NCBI GenBank assembly: GCA_028691845.1
Contig: JAQUYL010000015.1
Span: forward strand, 1 to 64,000
Origin: Opitutaceae bacterium
GTDB lineage: Bacteria > Verrucomicrobiota > Verrucomicrobiia > Opitutales > Opitutaceae
Reading direction: 5' to 3'
DNA: 64,000 nucleotides
A program made the translations under genes and the position numbers. How positions within the stretch are numbered: position 1 is the stretch's first letter; each line of letters starts with the position of its first letter. Below the pieces are notes generated by a model. That model made no database searches. It had not been told where the DNA came from and worked only from the letters and a program-made list of their open reading frames with translations. Of this stretch, positions 1 through 62,442 are shown piece by piece.

Positions 1-117
1 CATGCGCACCTTGATCACGTTCCTGGCCGACCCGGCCTTGGAGGTGTCACCACAGCCGCTGAGGGCGAACGCCGTGCCCAAAAGGGCGGCAGCAAAGAAT
101 AAAGTCGGTTTGTTCAT
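1..117 (-). CDS. N-terminus of a lipoprotein, probably an extracellular binding protein (cut by window edge)
   Basis: Thirty-nine codons are visible from an ATG at 117 and the frame stays open to base 1. The product begins with a Lys-containing n-region, a hydrophobic core and the lipobox LSGC at about residues 19-22, so it is exported and lipidated. The first mature residues (CGDTSKAG, then NVIKVRM) look like the start of a solute-binding protein, but too little is present to name a family. It lies 46 bp downstream of the MFS transporter on the same strand and is probably the last visible member of that transcription unit. Confidence is good for a lipoprotein and low for its role. Confidence 0.6.
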   Translation of the reverse strand, partial: MNKPTLFFAAALLGTAFALSGCGDTSKAGSARNVIKVRM

Positions 118-1588: not shown

Positions 1589-2821
1589 TCACTCCAGTTT
1601 GGCCAGTTGTTCGCGTGCCAATTCCGCGGTCAGTGGGAGATATTGGGCGTCCTCCGCGACGCATTCCTGGCCCTCCCGACTAAGAATAAATTTGAGGAAT
1701 TCCTTCAAACGCGGCGCCAGAGGCTTTCCCGGCGGGCGGTTGAGGTAGACATACAGGTAATTGAGCAGCGGGTAGGTCTGATTTTGAAACGTTTCCTTGG
1801 TTGGCAGGACATAAGGTCCCTCTGGCCCTCTGGCCAGGGCCAGCGCCTTGACCCCGGGATTTTTTTGGACAGCCCTCATGATGATAAAGCCTATTCCGTA
1901 AGGATCTTTCGCCACCTCGGCGACAATAGTGTCGTCGGCGCTCGCCGCATCGTTCACCGCTCCTCCGCGTGGGATTTCCTTTAGCGCTGAATTCCATTTA
2001 TCGCCTCCCTGGAATACGAATTCCTGAACTAGGAGCGACCACTGCGAAAGCGTAAGATCGAGTCCGTAGAGACGGATCGGCTTATCCGCCCATTCCCCGG
2101 TCAGTCCCAACTGGCCCCATGTGCGGATGTTTTTCTCCGGTCCACGCGCCAGCGACTTGTCCCAGTCCACTCCTCCCCTCCAGCCGCCGGTGCGCTGGCT
2201 GCCGAAAATTCCATCCAACTGCGCCAGGGTGAGCCTGGAAATCGGATTATTCTTGTTCACGAAAAAAGCCGGACTGGGGGTGGAGCCCCCGATATCATAA
2301 GTGCCGCTCGCGATGATGATCTCCAGTGGATCATAGCCGAAGTACTCCCGGAAGGCCCGGATATCCATCGGCCAGGCCTTGTGGCCGACCTGCCCCACGT
2401 CGGCGGTGCCGGCGCATAGTCCGCTGAACGTCACCGGCGAAGAGAGAAAATTATTCCGGAAACGGATGTTGTGATGGTGCTGCCGGTAGGCCTTGCGGAA
2501 CCTCTCCTCAAATAGGGTCAGGAGGTTGGTCGCGGTCTGGCTGCCGTGAAAACGGATCACCCCCTGTGTTTCCTCCTCAGGCTGGTAGGAGGGCAGCGCA
2601 CTCAGATCCCACGGGTGATACGTTGTCTTGTAGAGCTTGGAGTGGATGCTCCTGGGCTGCGCCGTACCGGGGTCGGAACTTTGTGCCCGCGCAAAATTTG
2701 CCGCAAAGATGGCCGTACAGCCAGCGAGCAGTGCCAGTCGGACGACAGGGCCGATTCGCCTCTTTGAGGCGCCAAGTCGATTGGCCGTGGTTTGGGAAGG
2801 TGAAAACGTGACCGCATTCAT
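1589..2821 (-). CDS. PstS-like periplasmic substrate-binding protein
   Basis: A 410-residue exported protein: signal peptide at residues 1 to about 45 (cleavage near FARA-QS), then a two-lobed PBP-like domain. Family landmarks are the QLDGIFGSQRTGGW segment, the block RTWGQLGLTGEWADKPI, and the C-terminal FLKFILSREGQECV followed by LPLT, all shared with the neighbouring genes. PstS relatives bind phosphate or other oxyanions for an ABC importer or a sensor. The region that should carry the SGT-type phosphate loop after IRLYG is replaced by unrelated residues, so the ligand may differ. It lies 51 bp after the next upstream paralogue (2873-4021). Confidence 0.85.
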   Translation of the reverse strand: MNAVTFSPSQTTANRLGASKRRIGPVVRLALLAGCTAIFAANFARAQSSDPGTAQPRSIHSKLYKTTYHPWDLSALPSYQPEEETQGVIRFHGSQTATNLLTLFEERFRKAYRQHHHNIRFRNNFLSSPVTFSGLCAGTADVGQVGHKAWPMDIRAFREYFGYDPLEIIIASGTYDIGGSTPSPAFFVNKNNPISRLTLAQLDGIFGSQRTGGWRGGVDWDKSLARGPEKNIRTWGQLGLTGEWADKPIRLYGLDLTLSQWSLLVQEFVFQGGDKWNSALKEIPRGGAVNDAASADDTIVAEVAKDPYGIGFIIMRAVQKNPGVKALALARGPEGPYVLPTKETFQNQTYPLLNYLYVYLNRPPGKPLAPRLKEFLKFILSREGQECVAEDAQYLPLTAELAREQLAKLE

Positions 2822-2872
2822 GGGGATCGTCTTAATTTGTCGGGAGGTTTTGTCTCAAGCCGTGGAGCGCCT

Positions 2873-4021
2873 TTACTGCAGCTTCGCCAATTGTGCGCGC
2901 ACGACGTCCTCTGTCAGCGGCAAGTAGTCGCCCTCGCGCACGACGTCCTGCTGCCCCTGGCGGCTTAGGATGTAACGCAGGAATTCCTTAACCTTGGGAT
3001 CAATCCGAGGATCGGCGGGATCGCCGTTTGGCTGGTCGACCGTAAAATAAATGTAGGCGTGGCGGGCCAAAGGATAGGTCTGGTCGGCAACCGTGGCCCG
3101 GGTGGGCTCCACGTAGGGTCCCCCATCCTGCTTCGCCAAGGCCAGCGGCTTCACCTGTGAGTTGCGGTAGCACATGCCAGCGTAGGCGATGCCCAGGGGA
3201 TCCTTGGCCAAAACCTCCAGCATCTCCCGCGGATCGACGTATTCGCGGTAGTCGTCGGTCCACAGATCGGAACCGCCCAAAACCCGGGTCTGGAAGAAGG
3301 TGATGGCTCCGGCGCCACGGGATGGCGACCCGTAAGGGTGGATGGGCTTATTCGCCCAATCTCCCGTCAGTCCGAGCTGTCCCCAAGTGCGAATGTTGCC
3401 CTCCGGACCACGTGCCTCCTCGGGATGCCATGTCAACCAATGCCAGCCACCGGTGCGCTGCACGCCGAAGATGCCGTCGAGTTGCTTCATCGTCAGCTTG
3501 GCGAGCGGATTGTCCTTGTGCACGAATATCACCAGGGCCGGTGCCTTGCGCGGCGTGTCGAAGCTCGTGGTCGCCACAGTCACTTCCACCGGATAGATCA
3601 TCGAGCGGCGGAGGGTGCCGAATAGCTGATTCGGATAAATCTGCCGGCCCACCACCGCCATATCGGCAACCCATTCCTGCAGGCCGAACATCGCCGAATT
3701 GTTCCCCTTTAGAACATCCGCATACCGGATTTCGGGGTGGTATTTCTGGAATCCCTCCTGCCACAGCTTCATCAGGGTGCCCATGTTATTGTCGCCCCAA
3801 GCTCGCAGGATCCCCGCGACCTTTTGCTCCGGCCTGTAATCGGGCAACCCCAATACTTTCTCAGAGGGGTCCGTCTTGGCTATCGCGTTTCCCGTGTCTT
3901 GGCGGGTGCAGCCTGCGGCCAGAATGGCTGCAGCCAGCAGAGCCAAGGCCGGTCGGACCCGGCGCCGAGTCAGGCGGGCCGCCAGGTGGTTTACTGTGAC
4001 GATTGCGCAGGGCATTTTCAT
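2873..4021 (-). CDS. PstS-like substrate-binding lipoprotein
   Basis: 382 residues. An Arg-rich n-region and hydrophobic core end in the lipobox LAAGC at about residue 38, so this copy is membrane-anchored. The PBP-like domain carries QLDGIFGVQRTGGWHW, RTWGQLGLTGDWANKPI and FLRYILSRQGQQDVV. After IHPYG it keeps the sequence SPSRGAGAITFF, the nearest match in the array to the SGT/FF ligand loop of true PstS proteins. The start ATG overlaps the TGA stop of the preceding (broken) gene as ATGA, which indicates translational coupling. An alternative start two codons in is possible. Confidence 0.85.
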   Translation of the reverse strand: MKMPCAIVTVNHLAARLTRRRVRPALALLAAAILAAGCTRQDTGNAIAKTDPSEKVLGLPDYRPEQKVAGILRAWGDNNMGTLMKLWQEGFQKYHPEIRYADVLKGNNSAMFGLQEWVADMAVVGRQIYPNQLFGTLRRSMIYPVEVTVATTSFDTPRKAPALVIFVHKDNPLAKLTMKQLDGIFGVQRTGGWHWLTWHPEEARGPEGNIRTWGQLGLTGDWANKPIHPYGSPSRGAGAITFFQTRVLGGSDLWTDDYREYVDPREMLEVLAKDPLGIAYAGMCYRNSQVKPLALAKQDGGPYVEPTRATVADQTYPLARHAYIYFTVDQPNGDPADPRIDPKVKEFLRYILSRQGQQDVVREGDYLPLTEDVVRAQLAKLQ

Positions 4022-6219
4022 TGTAGGGTTTTCAATGCTTCATATACCATGGTGTCGGTCAGCGGCAGGAATTTCCCGTCATCGACGATCGCTTGCTGGC
4101 CTTCGCGGCTGAGGGCGTAGGTAAGAAATTCCTTCAGCTTTGGGTCGATCGACTCGCCGGGCTTGCGGCCGACAAACCAATAGGTCGTCTGAATCAGCGG
4201 GTAGCTGCGGTTCTGGACATTTTCTATGGTGAAGGGCACGTAATGTGAACCGGTTTTGACTGCCAGGGCTACGCATTTGGCTTCAGGCCCGGCTTCCTGT
4301 TTGCTGCCGAAGGCAATACCATAGCGACTGTGCCGGAATGCTTCGTGGGTGAAATAGCGCAGCCGCTCATTCCACTTGTCGCTGCCCTTGATGACATTGT
4401 CGGAAAAGGCAATGCTCGACTCCGAACGCAAATCCGGCCCGAAAGCGATGATTGGCTGGTTGGCCCATTCGCCGGTGAGCCCGAGCTGCCCCCAAGTGCG
4501 AATGTTGCCCTCGGGACCGCGGGCGAATTCCGGATACCACGCGGTGCCCACCCAGCCGCCCGAACGAGGCGCACCGAAAATTCCGTCGAGCTGCGCGAGG
4601 GTGAGACCGTTGATCGGATTGTCCTTGTGCACGAAAACACCCAAGGCATTCGCCCATCCAGTACGATCGTAGGAGCCGGTCGCCATCGCAATAGGCAGGG
4701 CATCGGCATTGAAGAGCCGCTGATACGCCAGATATTCGCTGAAGCGCCAATAGGCTCCGGCGCCCACATCCGCCTTGCCGGTGATCATTCCCGTCGACGC
4801 CGCATACTGGGATGGAAGGGTCCATTCAAAAGTCGCCTTCGGATGGTATTTGCGGAATCCCTTTTCCCAGTTCTGCGCCAGGTTGCCGTCGGCGAGCTGG
4901 TTGAACCCCCAGACGCGGATTAGTCCGGACACCTGTTGTTTCGGCGTATATGCTGGAATGCCGCTCAATTCGAAGCGATTCGAGTAATGGGCCTTGGTAT
5001 CCTTGCTGCGGCTCGCCTTAGGCGTGCGTTTTGGCTCCGCCTCCAAAGCCGCCAGCCCTTCGCGGACACCCTGGGCCGTTAGGGGAATAAACTTGCCGTC
5101 CCGGGCCACATCCTCCTGCCCCTCGCGACTCAGGACGTAACGGACATATTCCAGGATCTTAGGGTCGAGTTTGGTGCCGGGCACGTGGTTGACGTTTAGG
5201 TACTCCTCGCTGGCATACGGGTATTCGCGGGTGAACACGTTCTCCATGTTGAGTTCCACGAAGGGGCCATTCTCATCCTTGGAGAGTAGGAGCAGTTTGA
5301 TGTTGGGATTGAGGTTCTGAATGCCGCTGTAGGCGATGCCTTAGGGATCATGGGACAGATCCTGCATCAGCAAACCCGCGCCGATGGCCAGGGTGCCGTC
5401 CGGTCGGGCGATATTTGCATACATGCGCAGCTCTTCGTTCCACTTGTCGCTGCCGCCAAGGTATTTGTCGGAAAAGCCGACCGACTGGTGATAGCGCAGA
5501 TTAACCCCGTAGGTGTGGATGGTTTTGTCTGCCCATTCGCCAGTGAGTCCCATCTGCCCCCAAGTGCGGATGTTTTTGTCCGGACCGCGCGCAACTTCGG
5601 TGTTCCACTGGCCCCTCACCCAGCCGCCATCGCGCTCAGCGCCGAAAATGCCGTCGACCTGCCGGGGTGTAATCTTGGACAGGGGATTAGATTTGTGGAC
5701 GAAAAAACCGAGGGCGTTGGCCCAGCCCGCCACATTAAACGAGCCAGTGACCATGCGGATCTGTTTCAACTCGTAGCCGAAGATGCCTTCCCATTCGCGG
5801 CGTTGCCAGAGCCACGTCTTGGTGTTGGCCCCGATGTCCGCCACGCCGGCAATCAAACCGGGAATCGCCACAAGCGCGGTGGGAGTCTGGTATTCAAAGG
5901 TAACGCGGGGATGGAATTTTTTGAAGCCGTCCTCCCAATACTGGGCGAGATTGGAGTCGGTGATGTAGTTCAGGCCCCACATCCGGATATGCCCGGAGAC
6001 TTGCTTTCCGGGAACATAACGGGGCAGAGCGCTCAGATCGAACTTGTAGTCGTAGTAGACTTTCTTGCCCTTGCTGGTGACGGATACGGCACGCGCCGCC
6101 TGCTCAACCAGCGGATTGCGGACAGGAGGCTCCTGGGCCGGCACCAGTCCTGCCCCGAGCAGAAAGGAGGCAAGGCCGATCACCGACGGGAGAAACTGGC
6201 GCTTCTGATTGGATCTCAT
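4018..6219 (-). pseudogene. Two-domain PstS-like binding protein interrupted by an in-frame TAA
   Basis: From ATG 6219 (AGAAGG upstream) to the TGA ending at 4018 the reading frame is continuous except for one TAA at 5341-5343. The first part is a signal peptide (to about LVPAQ) plus 292 codons of a PstS-like domain ending LSHDP. After the stop the same frame continues GIAYSGIQNLNP and completes domain 1 (YVRYVLSREGQEDVA). A charged linker at about 4984-5043 follows, then a complete second PstS-like domain with QLDGIFGAPRSGGW, RTWGQLGLTGEWANQPI and ALSREGQQAIV but no signal peptide of its own. The paralogue at 6356 reads DPYGIAF here, so one Tyr codon has changed to TAA. Either this is a pseudogene, the stop is read through, or it is a sequence error. 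Without readthrough domain 2 cannot be exported. Confidence 0.8.
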
Positions 6220-6355
6220 AATCCTTCTGTGTTTCCTATGTTGTGCGAATACTGTTTCCGCCGGGATCGTCAATGCTATCCGGCACAAGCCCAGTCCGCA
6301 GCCCCCTCAGCGGGGGAATCGTGATACTGGCGCCCATGGCCGGGGGAGCTGATGT

Positions 6356-7579
6356 TTACTCCAATTTTTTTCGCTGTTCCTGCACCATACTGCCGATTAG
6401 CGGAAGAAACTTCCCGTCGCGCTGAACCTCGTTTTGTCCTTCGCGACTCAGGATATAGTGGAGGAACTCCTTGACTTTCGGATCCACCGGCTGTCCGGGC
6501 TTGCGGTTGATATACATGTAGGACTCGCCGTGAAGCGGATAAGTCCGGTCGCGGGAAGTCTCCAGCGTTGGCTGGACGTAGGGCCCGCCTTCCTTCGAGG
6601 CAATCGCGAGCGTTTTCAGCCCAGCGCTCCCGCTGGCGGCCACCAGATCGGCGAAGGCGATGCCATAGGGATCGGTGCTCAGGTCGGACAGCATCGCGCG
6701 AGTGGACTGCGCCTGCGATCCATCAGGCAGGACATCATGCGCATACTCGCGGAGCCTTTCATTCCACTTCGCGCCGCCCTTGAACACGCGGTGTTCAATG
6801 CGGGCTTGCTGATGGTATTTCAAGGGCCGGCCGTAAACATTGATCGGCTGATTGGCCCACTCTCCGGTCAGACCCAACTGTCCCCACGTGCGGATATTCT
6901 TTTCCGGACCGCGCGCATTTTCCGTCTGCCACGTGGTGCCCTCAAAGCCGCCCATGCGCTCGGCGCCATAGATGCCATCCAGCTGCGGGAAGGAGAGTTG
7001 CGTGATCGGATTGCGCGTGTTCACGAAGATGCCGACCGTGGGAGCCCAACCGGGCACATTGTAGGAGCCGGTGACGAAGGTAATCTCGGTCGGGTGGTAG
7101 CTAAAGATCCGCTGGAACGCCAGGAGTTCATCAAAGGTGATTTTTCGACTGGCGCCGATATCAGCCAGGCCAAAATACAGCCCGGGAATCGCCACCAGTG
7201 CAGTCGGCGTGTAATATTCAATCCTTGATCCGGGATGGTACTGGCGGAACCCCTCGTCCCAATATTTGCCCAGTTTGCCATCCGTTAAATAATTCAGCCC
7301 ATAGACCCGGACTGTGCCGATGATGGTCTGCTCGGGTTTGTACGACGGCAGATCGTCCAGGTTCCATCGCTTTGTGTAATGGACGGCGTTGCCACGATCG
7401 TGAACACGACCTACCCGGCCTTTCTGGATTGCTATGGCCTCGCTCTCCTTGGCCGAGCCCTGCGCGGGCGACACGGAAGGCGAAAGAATCAACAATCCCA
7501 TCACAGCAAGCAAAGCTGGCAATGGTCTTGACGGGGCAGGCCGACGCCTGTTGGCAAACAGATGATTAGTGGACTTCAT
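6356..7579 (-). CDS. PstS-like periplasmic substrate-binding protein
   Basis: About 407 residues from the ATG at 7579; an ATG at 7600 is also possible and neither has a clear ribosome site. The N-terminus is basic and then hydrophobic (LLAVMGLLILSPSVSPAQG), a Sec signal peptide. The binding domain carries QLDGIYGAERMGGFEG, RTWGQLGLTGEWANQPI, DPYGIAFADLV and FLHYILSREGQNEVQ. It is closest in layout to domain 1 of the broken downstream gene (shared motifs TDSNLAQYW/TDGKLGKYW and TPTALVAIPGL), which suggests recent duplication. The canonical phosphate loop is absent after INVYG. It lies 136 bp upstream of the broken gene on the same strand. Confidence 0.85.
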   Translation of the reverse strand: MKSTNHLFANRRRPAPSRPLPALLAVMGLLILSPSVSPAQGSAKESEAIAIQKGRVGRVHDRGNAVHYTKRWNLDDLPSYKPEQTIIGTVRVYGLNYLTDGKLGKYWDEGFRQYHPGSRIEYYTPTALVAIPGLYFGLADIGASRKITFDELLAFQRIFSYHPTEITFVTGSYNVPGWAPTVGIFVNTRNPITQLSFPQLDGIYGAERMGGFEGTTWQTENARGPEKNIRTWGQLGLTGEWANQPINVYGRPLKYHQQARIEHRVFKGGAKWNERLREYAHDVLPDGSQAQSTRAMLSDLSTDPYGIAFADLVAASGSAGLKTLAIASKEGGPYVQPTLETSRDRTYPLHGESYMYINRKPGQPVDPKVKEFLHYILSREGQNEVQRDGKFLPLIGSMVQEQRKKLE

Positions 7580-7737
7580 TTTGAATGAGGAATTAAACAT
7601 TGTAATTATATGAACAGGCCTGGCTTTCGTAGCCGGCAATAATACGGCTATCGGATAACCTAGCCCATCCGGGCCCCGCCGTGAGCGGCTGCAGTCGAAT
7701 GACCGACGGGAATCCCCTGTTGTTCATTCGGCGGCCC

Positions 7738-8892
7738 TTAATTGAGCTTCGCCCGTTGCTCCATGACCACGGCGGCCGGCAGAGGGAAATAGACCCCGTG
7801 CTTGCGGACGATCTCCTGCCCTTGCGCGCTGAGCACGTATTCCACGAAATCCTTCACCTTGGGCGAGAGCGGACGGCCCGGCTCCTTGTCCAGATAGATG
7901 TACACGCTGCGGGTCAGGGGATAGCTCCGGTCGGTCAGCGTCGCCTTGCTCGGATACACATACGGCCCGCCTTCGTTCCTCGCCAGCTTCAGAATCTTGA
8001 TGCCCGTGATCTGCGGCACCTGCTTCCACTGCGGCATGCCCGCCCAGCCGATGGCATACTTGTCCTTCTCGAGGTACGCCAGCATGGCCAGCACGCCCGC
8101 CGACTCGTTGCCCGGGGTCAGGATTCTGGTTCCGTTTTCCACGCACTGCCGGTAATTCTCATTCCACTTGTCGCCTCCCTTGAAGACTTCGAGCTCGAAA
8201 AAGTGGTTCATGCCACCGGCAGCGTAACCGTAGGTCTGGATCTTTTTGTCCGCCCACTCCCCCGTCAGGCCTAGCTGCCCCCATGTGCGGATGTTCTCCT
8301 GCGCGCTGCGCGCAACCTCGGTCCGAAACTCCATCCTGTTATAGCCACCGGTGCGCTCCGCGCCGAAGATCCCGTCGAGTTGCTTCATGGTCAGCTGGTT
8401 CAGCGGATTCTCCTTGTTCACAAAAATCATCAGTGCCCAGCTCGAGCCGGAGACGTCATATCCGCCGCTGGCTATCGTGATCTCGGTGGGGTAATAGGCC
8501 CGATTCTCGCAGAACCCCAGGTAGTCGTTCAGCTCCAGTTCCCGGCCAAAAACGGCAATCTCGGCAATGCCATGCTGCAACACGCCAATCGCGGCGTCAC
8601 TGCCGCCGGGGTTGTCCGCGATCTTGAGGTTCGGGTTATACTTCAGGTAGTCCTCCTCCCACATTTTCACCAGGCCCTTGAGCCCGGCGCCGAAGACCCG
8701 CAGGATGCCATCAAACTCGGGGGCGGGCTTTTGGTAGACGGGCAACTGCTCACTGGGCGCCTGCGCGCTGGCCAGACCGGCTCCCGCGGCGAAAACAGCC
8801 AGCGCCAGGGCTTGCCGGCACGTGCGTTCAAAACGTGAAAAGAAAGCCGGACTCCTTTGCCCGGTTGCTTGGTGATGATCAATTTGTGACAT
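7738..8892 (-). CDS. PstS-like periplasmic substrate-binding protein, first gene of the array
   Basis: About 384 residues from the ATG at 8892. I chose this start because the residues that follow form a proper signal peptide (ALALAVFAAGAGLASAQ), whereas upstream codons give no export signal. The mature protein shows QLDGIFGAERTGGYNR, RTWGQLGLTGEWADKKI and FVEYVLSAQGQEIV. After IQTYG it has AAGGMNHFFELEVFKGG, so part of the FF ligand loop remains without the Ser-Gly-Thr. It is the promoter-proximal gene of the minus-strand array, separated by 296 bp from the divergent hybrid kinase at 9189. That arrangement suggests the two are regulated or function together. Confidence 0.85.
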   Translation of the reverse strand: MSQIDHHQATGQRSPAFFSRFERTCRQALALAVFAAGAGLASAQAPSEQLPVYQKPAPEFDGILRVFGAGLKGLVKMWEEDYLKYNPNLKIADNPGGSDAAIGVLQHGIAEIAVFGRELELNDYLGFCENRAYYPTEITIASGGYDVSGSSWALMIFVNKENPLNQLTMKQLDGIFGAERTGGYNRMEFRTEVARSAQENIRTWGQLGLTGEWADKKIQTYGYAAGGMNHFFELEVFKGGDKWNENYRQCVENGTRILTPGNESAGVLAMLAYLEKDKYAIGWAGMPQWKQVPQITGIKILKLARNEGGPYVYPSKATLTDRSYPLTRSVYIYLDKEPGRPLSPKVKDFVEYVLSAQGQEIVRKHGVYFPLPAAVVMEQRAKLN

Positions 8893-9188
8893 TGTGGTGG
8901 GGCTTATTTTATTGTTCTTTGGTGAAATTATTGGCTCGTCCGATCCCGACACGGCGTGTGATGGCATAACCCCAGGGTGCGCCATAGTTTCAGGGCGATT
9001 TGGCGCGGTCTCAGGGGCAATGCAGACATAAAGTCTTTGAGTCGGTAGCGATCGGCTTGTCAGGGGAAGCCGTACGCAAAACGTGGTGCAGGGGGTGGGC
9101 AACCCCACCGACTAGTTTAAAAATACTACCTGCATTCCAGGCAAATGTCTCGTCCCCGTCGCCATTTCTGATCAGGTTGAAGACGCCA
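8893..9188. promoter_or_regulatory. Divergent intergenic region between the binding-protein array and hybrid kinase 1
   Basis: About 296 bp with no convincing gene. It must hold the promoters of both the minus-strand array and the plus-strand kinase. A small hairpin is present: GGTGGG at 9094-9099 and CCCACC at 9104-9109 around a 4-nt loop. I found no clear sigma-70 or sigma-54 promoter by eye. Confidence 0.45.
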
Positions 9189-12100
9189 ATGGCTTTGTTT
9201 TCTACAACGCGGGTGCGAGTCATCCTTATTCTTGCCGTCGTTGCTGTCGCTGCCATGGCGCGGCAGGCAACGCCGCCGGGCTTGGCGGTGGTTAAATTGT
9301 TTAATCCATCGCCTGCTTTCATTGCAGGCGAACCGTATGCATTTGTCCGCAGCAAGGAAGGCGCACTTTTTGTGGCATCAAGCTGCCTGTCGATGTTTGA
9401 TGGCGCGAGTTGGCAGCAAATTCCGGTCCCAGGAGCCAAGCGGGTACTTGCGCTTGCAGCGGGAACTGCGCCGGAACGGATTTGGGTGGGGGCGGATGGG
9501 GCAATCGGATACCTTGAAAGGGACGCCAGAAACCAATGGCTGTTCGTTTCCCTCCTGCCTCAATTAAAGCAAGAGGGCGTCCCTGACTTGCTCGAAATAC
9601 ACCATGTGCATCCGACTGCCGATGGTGCTATTTTTGTATCCCGTTCCAGGGTTCTGCATTGGGATGGCAGTCGATTCCGAAGCTGGGATTTGCCGGCGCC
9701 GGCACGACTCTACGCCTTCTCTTCGGATGGCGACCTGTTCATCTATCGCCAGGGAACCGGGCTCCTGCGAATGGAAGAAACGGGGCCCAATCTGTTCCTG
9801 TCTCAGAATTTACTGCCTGTTCACGATAATCCGCTAATAGGATACTTCACGTTGGGAATCGGAAACGAATTCGCCGTATTTCAGCGAGGAGTGTGGCGGC
9901 GCACAGAGAATGAATGGATTCGTCTGGACGACGTTTCCAACATCCTGGCGGATGCGCGGGCAACCCACGCAACCCGGATTGACCGGACTACGGCTGCAAT
10001 CGCGACTTTCAGCAGCGGGGTCATTCTCCTGGCTGAAGACGGAGCCCTCCTGCGGATCGTCGACGGGAACAGCGGACTGTTAAGCGATACCGCCTCAAGT
10101 ATTTGGGCCGACACTGAAGAAAACCTCTGGATCGGCTTGGCCACCGGCATCGCTTGTCTGCGTAATACCTTGACCGAGTCTCTATTCGATCACCGGACAG
10201 GGCTGGGTGACGGAATTCAAAAGGCATTTCTTCATGAAAATCGTCCGGTATTCCTCACAACTCGCAGTCTTTACACGCTCCAGGACGGAAGACCCTCAGT
10301 GGTTCCACCCCTTCAGAAAATCGAATGGACCCTGCCAGAAGTGTGGGATGGGACAAGTATCGGGAATGAGATCTGGGTGGCTGCCACTGGCGGCCTCTGG
10401 CGCATATCCAATGAAAACACGCTATTGGTGTACGAGACACCTAACCAGGTTCCGCTGCTCACGAAGGCACAGGCGCTTCCGCAAGGTCTGGTTTTTTTTG
10501 ACAACGCCACCTGTCGCCTTATGCAGCCGCTAGCCTCCGGGGCGAGCACTCGCGAACTTTATCGTGAGTTGGACAGCATTCCTGTCTCAGTGGTCGAGGA
10601 AGATGATGGATCGGCCCTCTGGGTTTCGACTGAAACAGGCAACGTTTCCCGATTGCTTTGGAGCAAAGAGGATGGGCGGCCCAACCTTCGGCTTGGACGC
10701 CGCTATTCACTCGGCCCGGCGACGTCTTCATCCAAACAGTCACGACTCACTTCGCTCTCCGGAACGATTGTCGCCTTTGCCGGAGACAACATCCTGACTT
10801 ATTCTGACGCGAGTGAACAATTTGCGCCACTTGCCGGTTTCGAATACTTTAGAGGAGTCGCCGCAGCTTCGTTGGAGCATTCGGATCACGGGTTTTGGCT
10901 GGTGCAAAACAGGGGACTTGGGACGAACGGCCCGGCCGCCGTAATCCGGGTCCAACACAAGCCCGACGGCAAGGGTATGGATTGGGCGCCGATCGACATT
11001 CCCGGTCTAGACCATATCGGATCGTCCACCAACCTGAGCCTGACCAATGACAATGGCGGCGAGACCCTTTGGATCGCCGGGGCCTACGGGATGCTGCGGC
11101 ACGAATTCGGGAAATCGCGGATCGGCTCCCAACAAACACCCAGCCTGGGGTTGCATAAAATACGGATCACCGCGAATCGAGAGCCGGTTTCTGCGCTAGA
11201 ACACGGCGCTCGGTTTTCGCCCGGCGTGAACGAGCTTCGCTTCATTTTCCCGGCCGCCGGCGCTGTGAGGGGGGAAACGATCTTTTATGAGACCAAACTC
11301 GAAGGTGTGGAGACCGAATGGTCGCAGCCGAAGAACCTCCCTGAGCGGGAATTTACGGGCCTGTCTGCGGGATCCTACGTCTTCATGGCTCGAGCCATTG
11401 ATCGTTTCGGGCGCCGTGGCCCAATCGTCCGCTATTCCTTCGTCCTTGAAGCGCCATGGTACCGCACCGCTCCAACCATGGTCGGACTGGTGCTTGGCGC
11501 AGCGCTCGTCTTGTATGCCGGTGTCCGGTGGCGGCTGCGGCAGCTCCAGCGCCAGGCAGAGCGGCTCAACCGTCTCGTCGGCGAGCGCACGCAGGAGTTG
11601 CTTCTTTCCAACACAGCCAAGTCGGAGTTTCTCGAAAACATCAGCCACGAGATTCGCAATCCGCTCAATGGCATCGTCGGGATGATCGATCTGGTGACCC
11701 AGCAGAACCCTGAATGGAATTCGAACGAACATTTGCGATCCCTCAAGGAGTGCAGTGCGAGCTTGGTCCGTGTGTTTAACGACGTGCTTAATTTTTCCAA
11801 GCTAGAGTACGGCTATGTCACGGTCGACCAGCATCCCTTTTCGCTGACGACCCTGATCGAATCGGTGCGGGCGACATTTCTGGACCAGGTCACCAGGCAA
11901 GGCGGCAAGCTCAGTGTCAGGATACCGGCCAGCTTTCCTGACTCCTTCAATGGCGACGAAGCGAAGATCCGGACCGTTCTCAACAACTTCGTCGGCAACG
12001 CCGTCAAATACGCCCCCGGAACGGCAATCGAAATCACAGTGTCAGGAACCGAATCCGGCGAAGATAAACTGAACCTGCTCATCGAGGTGGCAGACGGCGG

Positions 12101-13094
12101 CCCCGGGGTCCCTCCCGAGGAGCAGGAGGTGATTTTTCAGAAGTTCGTCCGCGGCAGCCGGGCGCGGGCGACGAAAGTGACCGGGTCTGGCATCGGGCTG
12201 GCGACCTGTCGTATTTTGGCCAACCTGATGGGTGGAGGCGTCGGAATCGAGAGCGAACAGGGGAAGGGCGCGATCTTTTTTCTAAAACTTCCGGTGGGGA
12301 TAGCACAAAAGCCTGCCCCCACCCTGCCGGCCGCGGTTCTGCCGGAGCCCGGACAACGTCGGGCGCTCATAATCGAGGATCAACATTTCAACCAGGTTGC
12401 GCTCGCTGCTGTCGTCCGCCGACTTGGCTATGAGGTCGAATGCGTCTTCAACGCCAGCGAAGCCGCGGCCGTTCTGGCGCAGCATGCCTTCGAACTCATA
12501 TTCCTTGACCTGAAGCTGCCAGGAACGAAAGGGACGGAAATCGCCCGTTTCATCCGCTCCTCGCCCTCCGGCCGCGAGGTGGTGCTTATCGGAGTCAGCG
12601 CCAGTGACAGCCGGGAGGCGGCCCAACGCTGCCTGGCGTCGGGGATGGACGCGTTTCTCCTCAAGCCGGTGAGCGACGACCTCGTTAGCGCCACAGTCCA
12701 CGCCGTGCTGGCACGACGATCTTCCGGTACGGAACCCGGAGCTGCTCTCAATTTCTCAACTCTTGAACTCGTCGCGCGCAGCGCACCCGGTGGCATGGCC
12801 GAAGCCGTCCGCCTATATCTCACCGCCCTGGATGGCGAGATCGACGCACTCGAACAGGCCGTACGGACGGGCAAGAAGGAGGACATCGCGGCACAGGCAC
12901 ATCGAATATGTTCCCATGCCGCTGTTGTGAGCGCAGAAGAAATGGGCCGAACGGCGAAGGAACTGGAAACAGCGGCTGGGGCGGGTCAAATCGAGCAGTC
13001 CGCAAAGGCCCTGGAGAAAATCAGGAAACTGGCAGCCGATCTCTCCCAACGCCTTAAGGAACGGAACCAAGCGGTCGATCCGGAATCCGGGTGA
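9189..13094 (+). CDS. Hybrid sensor histidine kinase 1 (beta-propeller, Y_Y_Y, HisKA, HATPase, REC, HPt)
   Basis: About 1301 residues from the ATG at 9189, chosen because a signal/anchor helix (RVILILAVVAVAAMA) follows. Order: periplasmic two-component-regulator propeller with repeated WxG-type blades to about residue 650; Y_Y_Y Ig-like domain; transmembrane helix (TMVGLVLGAALVLYAGV); HisKA with phospho-acceptor His820 in ISHEIRNPLNG; HATPase with N box NNFVGNAVKYA, intact G1 ADGGPGVP and G2 GSGIGLATC; receiver with acceptor Asp1107 in FLDLKLPG; and an HPt-like helix bundle with His1238 in AHRICSH. It thus carries a full phosphorelay in one chain. It probably signals to the convergent response regulator, which overlaps its last 41 bp. 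Confidence 0.9.
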   Translation: MALFSTTRVRVILILAVVAVAAMARQATPPGLAVVKLFNPSPAFIAGEPYAFVRSKEGALFVASSCLSMFDGASWQQIPVPGAKRVLALAAGTAPERIWVGADGAIGYLERDARNQWLFVSLLPQLKQEGVPDLLEIHHVHPTADGAIFVSRSRVLHWDGSRFRSWDLPAPARLYAFSSDGDLFIYRQGTGLLRMEETGPNLFLSQNLLPVHDNPLIGYFTLGIGNEFAVFQRGVWRRTENEWIRLDDVSNILADARATHATRIDRTTAAIATFSSGVILLAEDGALLRIVDGNSGLLSDTASSIWADTEENLWIGLATGIACLRNTLTESLFDHRTGLGDGIQKAFLHENRPVFLTTRSLYTLQDGRPSVVPPLQKIEWTLPEVWDGTSIGNEIWVAATGGLWRISNENTLLVYETPNQVPLLTKAQALPQGLVFFDNATCRLMQPLASGASTRELYRELDSIPVSVVEEDDGSALWVSTETGNVSRLLWSKEDGRPNLRLGRRYSLGPATSSSKQSRLTSLSGTIVAFAGDNILTYSDASEQFAPLAGFEYFRGVAAASLEHSDHGFWLVQNRGLGTNGPAAVIRVQHKPDGKGMDWAPIDIPGLDHIGSSTNLSLTNDNGGETLWIAGAYGMLRHEFGKSRIGSQQTPSLGLHKIRITANREPVSALEHGARFSPGVNELRFIFPAAGAVRGETIFYETKLEGVETEWSQPKNLPEREFTGLSAGSYVFMARAIDRFGRRGPIVRYSFVLEAPWYRTAPTMVGLVLGAALVLYAGVRWRLRQLQRQAERLNRLVGERTQELLLSNTAKSEFLENISHEIRNPLNGIVGMIDLVTQQNPEWNSNEHLRSLKECSASLVRVFNDVLNFSKLEYGYVTVDQHPFSLTTLIESVRATFLDQVTRQGGKLSVRIPASFPDSFNGDEAKIRTVLNNFVGNAVKYAPGTAIEITVSGTESGEDKLNLLIEVADGGPGVPPEEQEVIFQKFVRGSRARATKVTGSGIGLATCRILANLMGGGVGIESEQGKGAIFFLKLPVGIAQKPAPTLPAAVLPEPGQRRALIIEDQHFNQVALAAVVRRLGYEVECVFNASEAAAVLAQHAFELIFLDLKLPGTKGTEIARFIRSSPSGREVVLIGVSASDSREAAQRCLASGMDAFLLKPVSDDLVSATVHAVLARRSSGTEPGAALNFSTLELVARSAPGGMAEAVRLYLTALDGEIDALEQAVRTGKKEDIAAQAHRICSHAAVVSAEEMGRTAKELETAAGAGQIEQSAKALEKIRKLAADLSQRLKERNQAVDPESG

Positions 13095-13722
13095 AGCCCT
13101 TTTCGATGGCATACCGCACGAGCTGCGGCGTACTGTGAATCCTTAGCTTCGTCATGATGCTGACCCGGTGATTCCTCGCCGTGTTGGCGCTAATCGCGAG
13201 TCGGGCCGCGATCTCCTCGTTGGTTAACCCCTCTCCAATCAATCGCAGCATCTCTTGTTCGCGATCGGACAGGATCTTATCGAAAGCAGCGGGATCGGCC
13301 CGGAGTGACAAGCGGAGTCGTTCTACCGAAGGAGAGATGAAACGCCGGCCAGCGAACACGGCCTTGATCACATCGCCCAGGATGCCCACCGGTTGCTCAT
13401 TCTTGTCCACAACAGCATGCACCGGTAACTTGAGCACTCGGGAGAGAGTGAATTCATCGATCCGAGAGGAGAGAATTATCACCTTGGCGTCGGGAACGAT
13501 GGCGAAAATATCCTTGAACAGGCTCAATCCGTCGCAATCCGGCAGCACCAAATCCAGCATAATCAAATCCGGCTGACTGTTCCGACACTCAGCCAGAGCC
13601 GTCTTCCCGTTGACGGCCGTCCTAATCATGGCAGACGGCGCCGCATGGGTGCAGGCCATGGCCAGGAATTCGCGGAACATCGTCTGATCCTCGACGATAA
13701 GGATTTTCGTGGGACCGGTCAT
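13054..13722 (-). CDS. NarL/LuxR-family response regulator 1
   Basis: 222 residues: receiver domain (acidic pair ED at 11-12, acceptor Asp57 in IMLDLVLPD, switch residues in ILSSR), a linker, and a LuxR-type helix-turn-helix (LSDREQEMLRLIGEGLTNEE through NHRVSIMTKLRIHS). It is a DNA-binding output protein, and the obvious partner is hybrid kinase 1, since the two stop codons face each other with 41 bp of coding overlap. One oddity is that the conserved receiver Lys sits in VVDKNEQPVG, not in the usual KxxP context. A similar kinase/regulator pair is found at 50476-54691. Confidence 0.9.
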   Translation of the reverse strand: MTGPTKILIVEDQTMFREFLAMACTHAAPSAMIRTAVNGKTALAECRNSQPDLIMLDLVLPDCDGLSLFKDIFAIVPDAKVIILSSRIDEFTLSRVLKLPVHAVVDKNEQPVGILGDVIKAVFAGRRFISPSVERLRLSLRADPAAFDKILSDREQEMLRLIGEGLTNEEIAARLAISANTARNHRVSIMTKLRIHSTPQLVRYAIEKGFTRIPDRPLGSVP

Positions 13723-13961: not shown

Positions 13962-15230
13962 CTACGCCCCGCAGACGTAGGGCACGGTCAGCGCCCCATC
14001 GGGAAGGACGGCTATGGGAGTATTCTGACCCAACTTGGCCAATTCCTCATCGATCGCCACACGGATATTTTTGACTGGCCGGAGATGCGCTTTACGCACG
14101 TCGGAATCGGGCAATTCGCTCAATAGGCTCACGCGGGCTTTCCTGAGAATGAGGGCAAAGAGCTGAACCTGCCATTGATCGAACTCATGATAGCCCGGCG
14201 TGCAGATGGTCTCGAGCATGGCCGCGGCTGAGTGATGCTCGAAGATCATTCGCTTGAAGTTACCATGCTCGGGAAATCCGTCGCCACACCGCGACGCGCA
14301 GAGAATAAGCCCGCCCGGTTTCACGATCTGCGCGGCAGCCGACATCCCCTTCACAGTCTGGTAGAGATTTCGATCCAGCGGAGCCCCGCTGTTGGTGGTC
14401 ACGACGACGGCGTAGTCGTGCGGACACTCGATCATCACTGATGTTTTTACGAAGGCACAACCCGCCCGGTGCGCCGCCATGACTTCCCCGCAAAAGAAAC
14501 GGGTGATTTCTTTGCGCCGGTTCAGAGACACATTGACCAGAAAATCCACTGGCACGAGTGATCCTCCCGCGCGCACGTTTCTTTGCGTGGCATTGTCCTC
14601 CAAGCGTCCCCATGTGCTCGTGGGATCCGCGACCGTCATCGCCGAGTGGTGGTGCATGATCGCATCAATGCCGGCAACACCAGGGAACACCGCCTTGTAG
14701 CCGCCGGAGAAACCGGCCATAAAATGCGGCTCGATGAAGCCCACGAGGATTCGCCGATCGGCTTCCACGTAATGCCGGCAAAACTGCACACCGTAGCCAG
14801 ACGCAGATCGTCCGACGTGGACCAAGGTGGAGGGGTCGTGGGCGTCATGGTTGATGATTCGATAGTTTTGCGCCACCTCGCGTCCGACCATGCGCTCAAT
14901 CTCCGTTGACGTATTCGCGCGATGAGATCCGGTCCCAATCAGGATCGTGATTTGCTCCCGCGGCACGTGCGCCAACTCGTCGAAAATCCACGGCAGCAGC
15001 CGATCGCTTGGCAGGGGACAGGTATTGTCGGGGATGACCACGGTGAGTCGCTCGGATGCCTTGACCAATTCCCTCAATGGGCGCGTGTCGTAGGGAGCAC
15101 GTACGGCCTTGAGGAAGGCCGAGTGCTCGTCGCCCAAACCTTCGATCAGTCTGGGTTCGATTACTGAGGCCTGCAGCCCGGAGAGATCGAGGGCCAGGCC
15201 AGTGTCCCCGTATAAAAGCTGAGTCTTCAT
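13962..15230 (-). CDS. LarA-family nickel-pincer racemase/epimerase (lactate racemase-like)
   Basis: 422 residues, the usual length of the family. Motifs: GTGSHR at 99-104, EPHFMAGFSGGYK with His169 and Lys179, a His cluster at 193-195, and TTNSGAPLDRNLYQ in the C-terminal lobe. Lys179 and His195 align with the Lys that carries the nickel-pincer cofactor and the Ni-ligand His of Lactobacillus LarA, so the active site looks intact. The family interconverts 2-hydroxyacid stereoisomers, and substrate is not readable from sequence. No larB, larC or larE cofactor genes are nearby, so they must lie elsewhere. The gene reads away from the phosphofructokinase gene. Confidence 0.85.
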   Translation of the reverse strand: MKTQLLYGDTGLALDLSGLQASVIEPRLIEGLGDEHSAFLKAVRAPYDTRPLRELVKASERLTVVIPDNTCPLPSDRLLPWIFDELAHVPREQITILIGTGSHRANTSTEIERMVGREVAQNYRIINHDAHDPSTLVHVGRSASGYGVQFCRHYVEADRRILVGFIEPHFMAGFSGGYKAVFPGVAGIDAIMHHHSAMTVADPTSTWGRLEDNATQRNVRAGGSLVPVDFLVNVSLNRRKEITRFFCGEVMAAHRAGCAFVKTSVMIECPHDYAVVVTTNSGAPLDRNLYQTVKGMSAAAQIVKPGGLILCASRCGDGFPEHGNFKRMIFEHHSAAAMLETICTPGYHEFDQWQVQLFALILRKARVSLLSELPDSDVRKAHLRPVKNIRVAIDEELAKLGQNTPIAVLPDGALTVPYVCGA

Positions 15231-50201: not shown

Positions 50202-50390
50202 CTATTGCAGAATTCCACAGGGGAGGCCTGGGTTCTCATCGAATACAGGGCCGTGCGCATCGATGGAGGATTTCATCGATTGATCCGCGGGATAGCGGAT
50301 GGTATCGAATTTATCCGCGGCGCGGGTTGCCCCAACGGCAAGGAACATGGTAGAGACCAAGGCGAATAGGAGTGATGTGAGTTTTTTCAT
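50202..50390 (-). CDS. 62-residue secreted peptide upstream of the YcaO-like gene
   Basis: From ATG 50390 the first 25 or so residues form a textbook Sec signal ([20 protein letters not shown], then ATRA-AD). The mature peptide would be about 37 residues ([20 protein letters not shown], then [18 protein letters not shown]) with a single Cys near the C-terminus. It is on the same strand as and 70 bp before the YcaO-like gene, and divergent from hybrid kinase 2, with only 85 bp between their starts. It resembles no family I know. It could be a signal for the kinase, a substrate of the YcaO-like protein, or an unrelated small secreted protein. No strong ribosome site is visible. Confidence 0.55.
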
Positions 50391-50475
50391 GACGTTGTCA
50401 GCATACATGAAGCGGGAAACTGTTGCCACTTCGTCGCTTACCTTTCTCAAGGTACGTCGGTACCGGATAAAGGGT
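50391..50475. promoter_or_regulatory. 85-bp divergent promoter region of the secreted-peptide/YcaO unit and hybrid kinase 2
   Basis: The short gap must hold control sequences for both directions. GGTAC occurs twice close together (around 50451-50463, the second as the palindrome CGGTACCG), a possible operator. No clear -10/-35 pair was identified. Confidence 0.4.
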
Positions 50476-53400
50476 ATGCGGCTAATTCTGCTGACGTTCG
50501 GACTCTTCTTAATCCACGGCCTCAACGCCATGCCACTCGAGGAAAGCCCGATCCGCTTCGACTTCACTGCCGCGCAACTCAACAGCGAACCGAATATCTG
50601 GCAGATCACTCAGACAACCGAAGGACAGGTAATCATTGGGGGGCGGCAGCTTGGATTCTACGAAGGAAACCAATGGGAATTTCTGCCCCAGCCGCAAACG
50701 CAAGCCATCCGCGCATTGCTGCCGGTCGGCAATACGCTGTGGGTCGCGTCCGCCAATGAAATCGGCAGGCTGACGCTGCCGTTGACCAACCGCAGCGTTT
50801 ATCAGCCTCTCCTGGTTCCCGGGCTCAATCATGTCGGTGAAATCTGGCATCTCGCCATGGCGGACGGCGAACTCGTGGCCACCACCAAGGATAAAGTTTG
50901 GTTCATTGATCCGGAGACGGGACAGGCACATCACTCTGTGCTCCCCACCGAGCAGCGCCTCTTTCTGCTCACCCACGGCGACAAACTGATCGTGGCGCCT
51001 CTGGGCAAGGCTCTCTGGGAGGTCCGTCGCGAGCAGGTCATCCCGATGGCGAATCCGCTTCCCAACAAGTCGGATGCGCAGTGGATTTGGTGCAACGACG
51101 ATTTTGTTCTGACGACCCGTGCGCTTTACCGGAAAACCACTGGCGGCTATCAAGTCATCACTGGAGTCGAGGATCTTTCCAGCGCCATCATCACTTCAGC
51201 CACCCAGTGGGGCGACCGCATCGCTGTCTCCACCGCCACCCGAGGGCTGGCGATCATGAATCCTCAGACCGGACAGGTGGATTTCGTGACCCGGGCCTCC
51301 GGGTTACCGACCCTAGTTACGCTTAAAACCTATGTGGACGCTTCCGACCGGCTTTGGGTCGGCACCAACCAAGGCATCAGCCTGTTCGAACCTTTCACGA
51401 CTGGCCATCGCCTGGCCGTAACAGATCCACCCGTAGGTGCGCTACGGCAAAATGGTCTCATTGTGAGCTACGAGAGCCATCTGGACTACTACCGCAGCGG
51501 TGGAAGCGTGACCTCCCATCCGCCGGCGTGGTTCCTCGGCACGACGGCGCACGGTCCCGCCATGGGCTTCTGGGGCAGGACCAGGATTGGATCCGAGGAG
51601 TTTCAGACTCCCGGCAACAGGGTCAGCGCAATCGCTGAACTGCCCAATGAACGCTACCTTGCTGTTGTGAGCGTCCATCTCTACGAAATCGACTACCGCG
51701 CTAGCACCGTCCGGCTTATCGAGGATGCCCCTGGTAATTTCACCGACGTCACGTGCATTGGTAGCACCATCTGGGGGGGCTCTCTCTCAGGCGAACTTTA
51801 CAAAGCCGACACAACTTCGCCGATCAGGTTTTCGCCAGTCGCAAAACTATCCGACTCCACTCCGACCCTCCTCGCCCGCCTTGGCGGCACTCTCATTGTC
51901 TTCACCAATAACAGCGTCCTCTACTATGACGATTCCCTGAAACCGGTCGGCCATACCCAAGGAATCAAGAACCCCAGGCTGGCTGAAGCCACCGACTGCA
52001 CCTGGCTCGCCGGTGAACAGGATGGGCAGCTCAGGCTTGGACGCCTGCGCAAGACAGGTCATACTGTCAGTTGGGAAACCGTCGAAGCCAAGGGGCTCGC
52101 CGCGCTTGACAAGGTCAGCCATCTTTCGGCAAGCGATGATCTGCTGACGATCTGCAGCGGCTCGGCCATTCTCGAACTGAGCACGGCCGAACTCAGACCT
52201 GAATACCGGCTGACACCGCCAACGCTTCGCTTTGTTTTTCCGGGTTCACAAGCTGAAACCGGTCTCGACGCTCTGCCGACTGAATTACCCGCCGGCCAAA
52301 GCACCGTGACCTTCACTGCAAGCCAGGCGTTCGACGAATTTGGGGAGAAACCGGCCTACGAACGGCGGCTGCTTCCGACCGACACAAACTGGACCCGGAC
52401 CAGCACGTCCGAAACCGTGCGCTATTCTTCCCTGTCGCCCCGAACCTACACCTTGGAGAGAAGAGCCACCCATCTCGGCCAGATCGGACCTGTGAAGTCC
52501 TACCGCTTTACGCTGCCGCCCCCATGGTACTATACAAACCCGGCCATCGCCGCCTATGCTTCCCTAGCGATCCTGATCGGCATCGGTCTGACCACCTTGC
52601 GCACGCGGCAAATCCAGCGGCGGAACATCGAACTGGAGGCACTGATCCAGGAACGCACCCGTGAACTGGCCAAGGCCAGCGCCGCCAAATCAGAGTTTGT
52701 CGCGTCGATGTCGCACGAGATCCGTAATCCAATGAACGGCGTCATCGGGCTGATCGGCATGCTCAAGGAGATGGATCCCCCACCAAAACAGCGGCATACA
52801 CTGAAACTGCTGCAAAATTGCGCCGAACAACTGCGCTGCACGGTCGACGACATTCTCGACTTTTCCAAGATTGAGGCCGGGGACGTCAGCCTGCAAATCA
52901 CTGACTTTGACCTGGCGGAAACCATTGAAGCCGCAGCTATCACGGTCGATCCCGCTCGGACCAGGATTCGACTCCTCTCCCCCATCCCGCCTGATATTCG
53001 AGTCCGGGGCGACTGCGGGAAAGTCCGGCAGATTCTCGCCAATTTCCTCGGCAATGCCCTCAAATACGGAATCCCGTCCGAGGCACGCATCAACACCATT
53101 CTCACTCCTCGGGATGAGCAGCTAACCGTTACGGTGGGCGTGACCAGTTCCGGCCCTACCATCGAAAAGGACACCCTCGATAAGCTCTTTGAAAGCTTCA
53201 CGCGCGGAGACGACGCCAAGCAACGCAACATCCGGGGCACCGGCTTGGGCTTGGCCATCTGTCGACGCTATGCGCTGGCCATGGGCGGCAATGTCGGTGC
53301 GGTGAGCGCGAATGGCGAGACCACGTTTTATTTCACCGCGAGTTTCGCCTGCCTGGGCGCGGCGGTGTTCGCGAAGGCACCTGCGTCCACGCGGGCTCTT

Positions 53401-54066
53401 CCGGCACGGGCTCTGGCAATCGAGGACGAGGATTACAACCGCATCGTCCTCGGGAATATCCTTGAGAAAATGAACTACACGGTCGACTGGGCCACCACTG
53501 GAGTCGAAGCGATCCGCTTGGCCTGCGAAAATGGGTACGACGTCATTCTCACCGACTATCGCCTGCCGGACACCAACGGGGTCGCCCTCACCCGGGAGCT
53601 CCTGCGCCTTTGCCCGGAGCCCAAACCCGCCGTCTTTGCCGTCACGGCCTACTCGACCAAGGAGCGCCGCGAGGAATGCCTGGGTGCAGGCATGGCCGGA
53701 TTCATCAGCAAGCCCATCACCATTGAAAAACTTCGTGGTGCCCTGAACGCCTGGGGCGAGACGCACCTCGGCAAGATCTCGCTTGAAGTCACCCAGCTGC
53801 CGCCGATGCCCGCCGCGGCTGCCGATCCGCTGCAAGCCATTCGCCAAGCATGGAGCGCCGTCAAATCCACCGCGCAAACCGACCGGAAGTCAGCCGCCTA
53901 TCTCGCTCATAAACTCAACAATCTTTGCCGCGCTAATAATTTCCCGGACCTCGGCGACCAGCTCGAACTGCTGGAGGGGGTCCTCGAACGCGGCGAAGCA
54001 ATCGAAAGGTTCGTTCAAGTCATCGAGAATCTCCTCTATCCGCCTACAAATGATCGACCGTTGTGA
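50476..54066 (+). CDS. Hybrid sensor histidine kinase 2 (beta-propeller, Y_Y_Y, HisKA, degenerate HATPase, REC, HPt)
   Basis: About 1196 residues from the ATG at 50476, chosen because a signal helix ([17 protein letters not shown]) follows. The domain order is the same as kinase 1: periplasmic propeller, Y_Y_Y domain, TM ([18 protein letters not shown]), HisKA with His747 in [15 protein letters not shown], HATPase, receiver with Asp1027 in ILTDYRLPD, HPt with His1145 in [13 protein letters not shown]. The HATPase keeps the N box ([10 protein letters not shown]) and G2 (GTGLGLAIC), but its G1 box reads VTSSGPTI and lacks the Asp that binds adenine. It may be a weak kinase or mainly a phosphatase/scaffold. 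Its last 23 bp overlap the convergent regulator. Confidence 0.88.
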
Positions 54067-61412: not shown

Positions 61413-62438
61413 CTAGCGAAATTGCCCCAATTTGGACCGCTCGTGTTCGGCCTCCGCCGGAGTCAGTGGCACGTGACCCGTCGCCGTGATGATCTCCTGT
61501 CCCTCGGGTGACAGGACTAGCCGGATATAATCGGCCACGAGGGGATCGGGCGATTTGCCCGGGATCTTGTCTATGTATAGGTGCAGAAACTCCGCCAGGG
61601 GATACCGGCCGGCATGGAGGGTTTCATCGTCGGCGACCCGATAGGGTTCGTTCGCGTTTTCCGCCAGTGGCAGCAAGCGCACGGTGGGCGGCAGGACCGC
61701 GACCTCGTGAAGACCGACGAGACCGACGCCATAAGGGTCGTCCGCCACGGCTTGGATGATCGCGGCATCGCTGGCCAGCGGTTCATACCGGCGGCTGAAC
61801 GGGCGTCCATCCATCCGGGAATGTCGCAAAGCTGAAATATAACCACCGTTGTCGCGCGGTCCATAAAGGTGAATGAGCCGTTGCGCCCATTCGCCCGTCA
61901 GCCCGAGCTGTTCCCAACGGGTCAGATCCCCTGTCCCGCCACCCATCGTGAAAACTCGCGCCACCTGTTCAAGCGTCAGTCCCGACAGCGGGTTTCTAGT
62001 GTTTACATACACGCCGGGAGGGCGCGTACGGCTCGCGGCAGGGTAACAGTTGCGGCCGATGCGTACATCGGTTGCCTCATAGCCGTGCACCTGGCGAAAG
62101 GGCCGGGTTTCCTGGGGCCAAGCGGCCCGATCCATGGGAGCGAAAGCGGACACCCCGGCGGCCAACCCTCCCAATGCCGTAGCCGCCGTGGGATCGAGCA
62201 ACATGGTGAACCTGACGTTGGGGTGAGTCTGGGAAAAGAGCTCGTTAAATCTCGTCAGGACCTCCCGCATGCCAGCGCTGCCGACAATGTAGACCGACCC
62301 ATCCAGCCGGACATAGGGAGCGGCGTCCTGGGAAATTCCGACTGCCCGCGTGGCAGAGGCGGGCCACCCGGCGGCGGCGGTCACGGCAAACGTCAGTATC
62401 AGACCCACAAGGCGCCGGAATCTTTGGGCGGCAGTCAT
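61413..62438 (-). CDS. PstS-like periplasmic substrate-binding protein (cluster 2)
   Basis: About 341 residues from the ATG at 62438, chosen because a signal peptide follows (LVGLILTFAVTAAAGWPASA). The mature protein is a divergent relative of the cluster 1 proteins: LEQVARVFTMGGGTGDLT, RWEQLGLTGEWAQRLIHLYG, then DDPYGVGLVGL and YIRLVLSPEGQEIITATGHV. The block after YG carries PRDNGGYISALRH and no SGT loop. It starts 4 bp after the next cluster 2 gene, so the two are tightly coupled. Confidence 0.82.
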   Translation of the reverse strand: MTAAQRFRRLVGLILTFAVTAAAGWPASATRAVGISQDAAPYVRLDGSVYIVGSAGMREVLTRFNELFSQTHPNVRFTMLLDPTAATALGGLAAGVSAFAPMDRAAWPQETRPFRQVHGYEATDVRIGRNCYPAASRTRPPGVYVNTRNPLSGLTLEQVARVFTMGGGTGDLTRWEQLGLTGEWAQRLIHLYGPRDNGGYISALRHSRMDGRPFSRRYEPLASDAAIIQAVADDPYGVGLVGLHEVAVLPPTVRLLPLAENANEPYRVADDETLHAGRYPLAEFLHLYIDKIPGKSPDPLVADYIRLVLSPEGQEIITATGHVPLTPAEAEHERSKLGQFR

Positions 62439-62442
62439 GACA

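Follow-up and report, generated by a model that had tools for sequence, protein, structure and literature searches.

This locus raises the question of what PstS-like binding proteins do in a genome where no Pst transporter was found to receive their ligands. The locus lies at positions 1589 to 8892 of the window, by which is meant the whole analysed stretch of 64,000 nucleotides of an Opitutaceae bacterium (GCA_028691845.1, contig JAQUYL010000015.1), starting at base 1 of contig C1 (76,567 bases) of the window genome, G000. The five minus-strand genes with six PstS-like domains described in the sequence-only reading were borne out by open reading frames and Pfam, and were found in the following order:

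1589 to 2821, minus strand: PstS-like protein of class G, partner of class F
2873 to 4021, minus strand: PstS-like protein of class F with an AAGC lipobox-like N-terminus; this protein was modelled
4018 to 6288, minus strand: PstS-like gene of two domains (N=N), whose reading frame is cut by a TAA at 5341-5343
6356 to 7639, minus strand: PstS-like protein of class M
7738 to 8892, minus strand: PstS-like protein of class C, with an ATG at 8892 and an open frame extending to 9108

The TAA was found to fall within a conserved DPYGIAY stretch of the two-domain gene, and an intact two-domain relative of the same class was found at L051:6116-8425. Five of the six window PstS-like proteins scanned with Pfam contained PF12849 alone and one was without a match. 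The answer that we favour, with belief and doubt held about level, is that the array consists of paired non-phosphate binding proteins of a TonB-linked acquisition or sensing module that is independent of an ATP-binding cassette (ABC) transporter and is amplified in G000. The computed results brought to bear on it were the fold, the loss of the phosphate motif, the class structure with its pockets, partner adjacency, the absence of PstC and the recurrent neighbours.

The fold was found to be the Type II binding-protein fold of PstS by profile as well as by model comparison. The family profile A1 matched 4omb with E 1.8e-79, and the model of the protein at 2873-4021 (predicted local distance difference test, pLDDT, 90) was aligned to 4omb over 298 residues with a VIA Z of 29.8 and a root-mean-square deviation (rmsd) of 5.7; we take 4OMB/4PQJ to be PstS of P. 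aeruginosa. The scaffold motif TWGQLGLTGEW was already known, 4omb containing TWGDLGLTGDW. All 219 array domains, from 12 genomes, were placed in one clade (support 0.938) that shut out all 16 controls, namely ordinary PstS from 12 genomes (15 domains) and 4omb. The phosphate motif R-N-x-x-S-G-T was conserved in 16 of 16 control PstS and present in 0 of the 219 array domains, and the protein at 2873-4021, the one protein tested, reached 107 bits against TIGR02136, under the cut-off of 206.6. From these motifs the array proteins appear to have lost the phosphate site. A fused double PstS with the phosphate motif kept in both halves was found in another Verrucomicrobiota genome (L109:3-1916, G190). 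A second insertion of about 14-21 residues was present before the TWG motif in most classes, B, D, E, J and O being the exceptions. The first insertion, a TGS stretch, was dropped as a family mark, its column measure being without resolution and its motif present in 84 of the 219 domains. Lipoboxes counted by class were few and scattered, with start codons uncertain.

PstC was found to have 0 matches across G000, and a PstC match was present in 50 of the 54 genomes of the relatives search (G000 among the 54), in 38 of them over the cut-off. No PstB over the cut-off was found in G000, the best match reaching 148.8 bits against 343.2. The earlier statement that pst genes were lacking from the window was thereby extended to the whole genome for PstC and upheld for PstB, PstA and phoU not having been searched for. 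A pstCAB set directly past the window edge, named beforehand as an observation that would overturn the sequence-only reading, did not occur, PstC being absent from the whole of G000. With no Pst transporter, the array therefore does not feed one.

The array was found to be one of about 30 such loci once paralogues were counted in the rest of the genome, so the original observation held and proved larger than claimed. The genome (2.95 Mb, 37 contigs, with completeness rated at 98.8% and contamination at 1.1%) contained 77 PF12849 matches and, fragments counted, 95 matches to profile A1. After domains of fewer than 250 model positions or under 60 bits were left out, and with window hits past 60000 counted under L052, 81 near-full PstS-like domains were found in 30 loci on 21 contigs, the stretches taken, which do not include the member at C13:82643, making up about 13% of the genome. 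At least four domains were contained in 7 of the 30 loci and a single domain in 14. Chance is excluded as the source of this abundance because the 77 PF12849 matches in 2.95 Mb compare with 17 in G024, 6 in G026 and 0-3 in each of the other 54 among the 56 other genomes of the relatives search. Among the G000 matches several fragments and internal stops were found, which point to gene birth and decay. A second array, with three further PstS-like domains beginning in the window, was found at its right edge and reaches near the end of contig C1:

60897 to 61403, minus strand: small secreted GAF-fold protein, a recurrent array partner
61413 to 62522, minus strand: PstS-like protein of class B (L052:1414)
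62443 to 63699, minus strand: PstS-like protein of class B (L052:2444)
63675 to 64000, minus strand: PstS-like protein of class F (L052:3676), truncated by the window edge and followed past it by class G (L052:4809)

The tree contained 18 clades of at least three members (classes A to R) with supports of 0.81 to 1.0, the class cut being the author's choice (clades of at most 30 leaves, support at least 0.8) and 15 domains remaining unplaced. Most classes were common to several phyla, and ten genomes each contained a single member of class K. The expectation that the window domains form one lineage-specific clade failed, the six domains belonging to five classes (C, M, N, F and G), each found in other genomes as well. 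Class G was found to adjoin class F in 14 of 14 cases, in the order G-F in 13 and F-G in the window, whereas any class pair reached at most 6 in 500 shuffles. Class D adjoined or was fused with class E in 15 of 16 cases, the exception lying at a contig end (L097). The two-domain proteins, 14 in number, were found to be D=E (3), B=B (3), A=A (3), O=B (2), M=M (2) and N=N (1). The distance matrices of the G-F partners correlated at 0.84, a value reached by 4 of 2000 within-genome shuffles, and those of the D-E partners at 0.79, reached by 22 of 2000. The partners co-vary and the classes stand in fixed pairs.

The identity of pocket columns was found to be 0.18 between classes (0.38 elsewhere in the protein). 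Within the 16 classes of at least five members it was 0.25-0.88, and in nine of them (A, C, D, G, I, J, K, L and M) it was higher than outside the pocket. Because the pockets differ by class, several different ligands are likely bound. What stood of the earlier proposal of a sensing, scavenging or surface role with several ligands was that no Pst transporter is fed and that more than one ligand is likely.

The genes flanking the window array were found as follows:

1 to 117, minus strand: start portion of an NMT1/SsuA-like binding lipoprotein with lipobox ALSGC, leaving the contig end
164 to 1537, minus strand: MFS transporter (Pfam MFS_1, E 5.7e-49), kin of those by the arrays in L070 and L075 (shared cluster c6)
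9000 to 13094, plus strand: divergent hybrid histidine kinase (Y_Y_Y, HisKA, HATPase, receiver and Hpt by Pfam)
13054 to 13722, minus strand: LuxR-type response regulator

The downstream gaps were as first given, 51 bp from the MFS gene to 1589 and 46 bp from it to the lipoprotein start at 117, and the array was likewise found by Pfam to be divergent from the large hybrid kinase, whose true start may be at about 9189, with the LuxR-type regulator also present. The 127 terminal bases at the lipoprotein end matched the start of contig C37 exactly, which is graph evidence of linkage and not proof; read across this join, the lipoprotein is an NMT1/SsuA-like binding protein (Pfam NMT1, E 3e-13, L064:2-1096) followed by the presence of a further PstS-like gene. 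A lactate-racemase-like (LarA) gene was found near the array at 13962-15230 (minus strand).

In other genomes the array-side neighbours were found to recur. The order TonB receptor-NMT1-G-F or TonB receptor-G-F-NMT1 was repeated in G024, G057, G062 and G179, and of five array-side TonB receptors tested against the siderophore-type profile TIGR01783, three were clearly over the cut-off, one equalled it and one was below. PepSY_TM was present within the array stretches of G057, G058, G059, G060 and G179, the sole PepSY_TM of G179 being located in its array island. The plasmid of Paraburkholderia sp. PGU19 contained a run of PepSY, 2Fe-2S, NMT1, PstS-like, small protein, PstS-like, TonB receptor, small protein and YncE and, beyond this run, a two-component pair; the plasmid locus of Azoarcus sp. 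KH32C contained a PepSY protein with NAD-binding and 2Fe-2S domains. Locus L113 contained an ABC permease and ATPase downstream. The small secreted protein had no Pfam match save one weak match below the cut-off, and its model (pLDDT 84) was GAF-like (best Z 12.5, rmsd 3.1, 120 aligned). It was found in 3 of 288 Verrucomicrobiota genomes, namely both array genomes (G000 and G179) and G020, and was fused at the front of TonB receptors in L087, L094, L113 and L115. In G020, a genome without a high-scoring array, the small protein lies at C53:1609-2133, and in G179 four tandem domains of this kind were found in one 611-residue open frame (C1:132037-133767) away from the PstS-like island.

Because siderophore-type receptors and reductase-like PepSY proteins occur beside the arrays of other genomes, the putative ligand may, by analogy, be iron or another metal chelate. 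In the mechanism proposed, the proteins would have descended from PstS of the Pseudomonas aeruginosa 4OMB type with phosphate swapped for other ligands, would be exported to the periplasm, some possibly lipid-anchored, and would act as pairs (heteromers). The ligands would be compounds entering via the TonB receptor, and would be handed over to a non-ABC inner-membrane step, predicted to be the PepSY_TM reductase where present and possibly the MFS transporter in G000; alternatively, they may be presented to adjacent kinases. In G000 the main role may be to sense and buffer several ligands, because the binding-protein part was multiplied and spread and PepSY_TM is absent.

Several results weigh against this account. 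No PepSY_TM was found in G000, a TonB receptor was present in just two of its array stretches (L057 and L075), and the 14 single-domain loci among its 30 include many amid unrelated genes. Classes B, E, F, H, N and P were less conserved in the pocket than elsewhere, with O tying at two decimals, and the pocket columns lie in variable loops and are possibly misaligned. The pairing could stem from joint duplication or transfer and not from contact; either would give the same signal, and physical pairing is therefore what we infer. A Fur-box scan of 27 loci gave no signal that stands out, each locus containing from 0 to 4 weak sites (13-14 of 19), a few of them above the small expectation, and was not used as support. 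In Paraburkholderia sp. PGU19 an ABC permease and ATPase were found about 13 kb past the PstS-like genes.

The distribution was found to be patchy, and the conservation among relatives that had been looked for was not seen. Among the 288 Verrucomicrobiota genomes, in a survey scoring at most six candidates per genome so that counts are not copy numbers, matches above 400 bits were found in G000 and G179 only, the other 50 genomes with a match staying within the range of ordinary PstS, at 278 bits or less. Most of the 41 matches of the single-contig genome G179, fragments counted, lie at 1.446-1.509 Mb, and its congeners G036 and G210 contained weak matches only (at most 55 bits) and no array. 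Related arrays were found in an Opitutaceae metagenome-assembled genome (MAG), in Paraburkholderia piptadeniae, which is a named strain rather than a MAG, and in MAGs labelled Janthinobacterium, Betaproteobacteria, Eremiobacterota, Acidobacteriaceae, Sphingomonadales, Nevskia and Deltaproteobacteria, labels which may be wrong. Plasmid relatives were found in eight records, some of them ordinary PstS, and one weak match was found in a phage collection. The plasmid L116 (AP014720.1) contained array-type PstS-like genes, an NMT1-like gene and a YVTN gene; it is filed under Arthrobacter yet typed MOBP/MPF_T, and its host label may deserve a check. Paired sets beside outer-membrane uptake receptors in unrelated soil bacteria suggest a capture or sensing system for other molecules. 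A wider version, put forward tentatively and rather on the doubtful side, is a horizontally mobile, multi-phylum uptake system in which a TonB receptor would hand metal chelates or organic anions to obligate PstS-derived pairs, the pocket classes would be reused in the manner of cassettes, and the ABC importer would give way to a PepSY reductase or a secondary carrier; G000 would have made of this system an 80-fold ligand-recognition repertoire.

The alternative that survives best, though we think it somewhat improbable, is a sensory array, in which the binding proteins would present ligands to the propeller hybrid kinases encoded divergently, with transport in second place. Homologous Y_Y_Y hybrid kinases, 35-46% identical (the window kinase being 46% and 35% identical to those by two other arrays), were found facing three of the seven G000 loci that contain at least four domains, and two-component genes were present near arrays in other genomes too. 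However, most G000 loci are without a kinase, and this kinase type was not seen by the arrays in the stretches of G024, G057 and G179, so that the pairing of array and propeller hybrid kinase anticipated earlier repeats within G000 and not in those three genomes. A second match to the array-side kinases (388 bits) was found in the part of the window that contains a further large plus-strand open frame, at about 50299-54066, not by an array.

A structural or surface role, as in adhesion or filaments, is unlikely. The very many copies and the conserved scaffold motif set against a variable pocket would fit it, and PstS-rich appendages have reportedly been proposed for P. aeruginosa, but the pocket residues are conserved within many classes across phyla, the neighbours are of uptake type, and the Pfam scan of window proteins showed neither anchor nor repeat domains. 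Scavenging of phosphate (or arsenate) by an altered site with hand-over to a PiT transporter is very unlikely: the PstS fold was found and a PiT-type phosphate transporter is encoded in G000, yet R-N-x-x-S-G-T is lost throughout and the pockets diverge by class. A binning or assembly artefact, to which the 37 contigs and a C1-C37 link of a 127-base overlap only would lend themselves, is hardly credible given genes on 21 contigs of a genome of the stated completeness and contamination and a comparable island in one-contig G179.

If the account of paired, TonB-linked binding proteins is right, genes annotated as phosphate- or substrate-binding across many soil bacteria may encode proteins that neither bind phosphate nor serve an ABC transporter, and metagenome counts of phosphate uptake would therefore be inflated. 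The fixed pairs offer a testable case for periplasmic binding proteins acting as heteromers without an ABC transporter, and the paired proteins are candidates for a part left unidentified in TonB-PepSY siderophore systems, the periplasmic carriers.

No description of this PstS-like family, its pairing or the locus type was found in the open-licence PMC literature (subscription papers being outside the scope). PstS of P. aeruginosa (4OMB/4PQJ, TIGR02136) is like the array proteins in fold and in the TWG-LGLTG-W scaffold motif; it differs in that the array is without the phosphate motif, most of its classes contain the insertion before TWG, and G000 has no PstC. PF12849 is named among substrate-binding protein (SBP) profiles in the available part of PMC9602780. 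Lanthanide clusters (PMC10875860) had only TonB and YncE in common with the arrays, and no link was shown in the part of that paper available. The reductive siderophore uptake of hiuABC / FoxB, whose periplasmic binding proteins were left to be identified according to the available part of PMC12424826, resembles the array loci of other genomes, where a siderophore-type TonB receptor and PepSY_TM were found in one locus; the large PstS-like sets, and a G000 without any PepSY_TM, set the array apart from what is described there. Expanded orphan binding proteins are already known from the Bug/TctC proteins of tripartite tricarboxylate transporters (TTT), of which Rhodoplanes contains 434, with arrays of up to nine, and the available part of the same report (PMC5994714) describes, as here, many orphan binding proteins in tandem arrays, some near kinases. 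The expansion in G000 was found to be of this large orphan-receptor kind, and the array family differs from Bug/TctC in belonging to PF12849 rather than TctC, in its partner classes shared across phyla, and in loci that contain TonB receptors, PepSY_TM and the GAF-fold protein.

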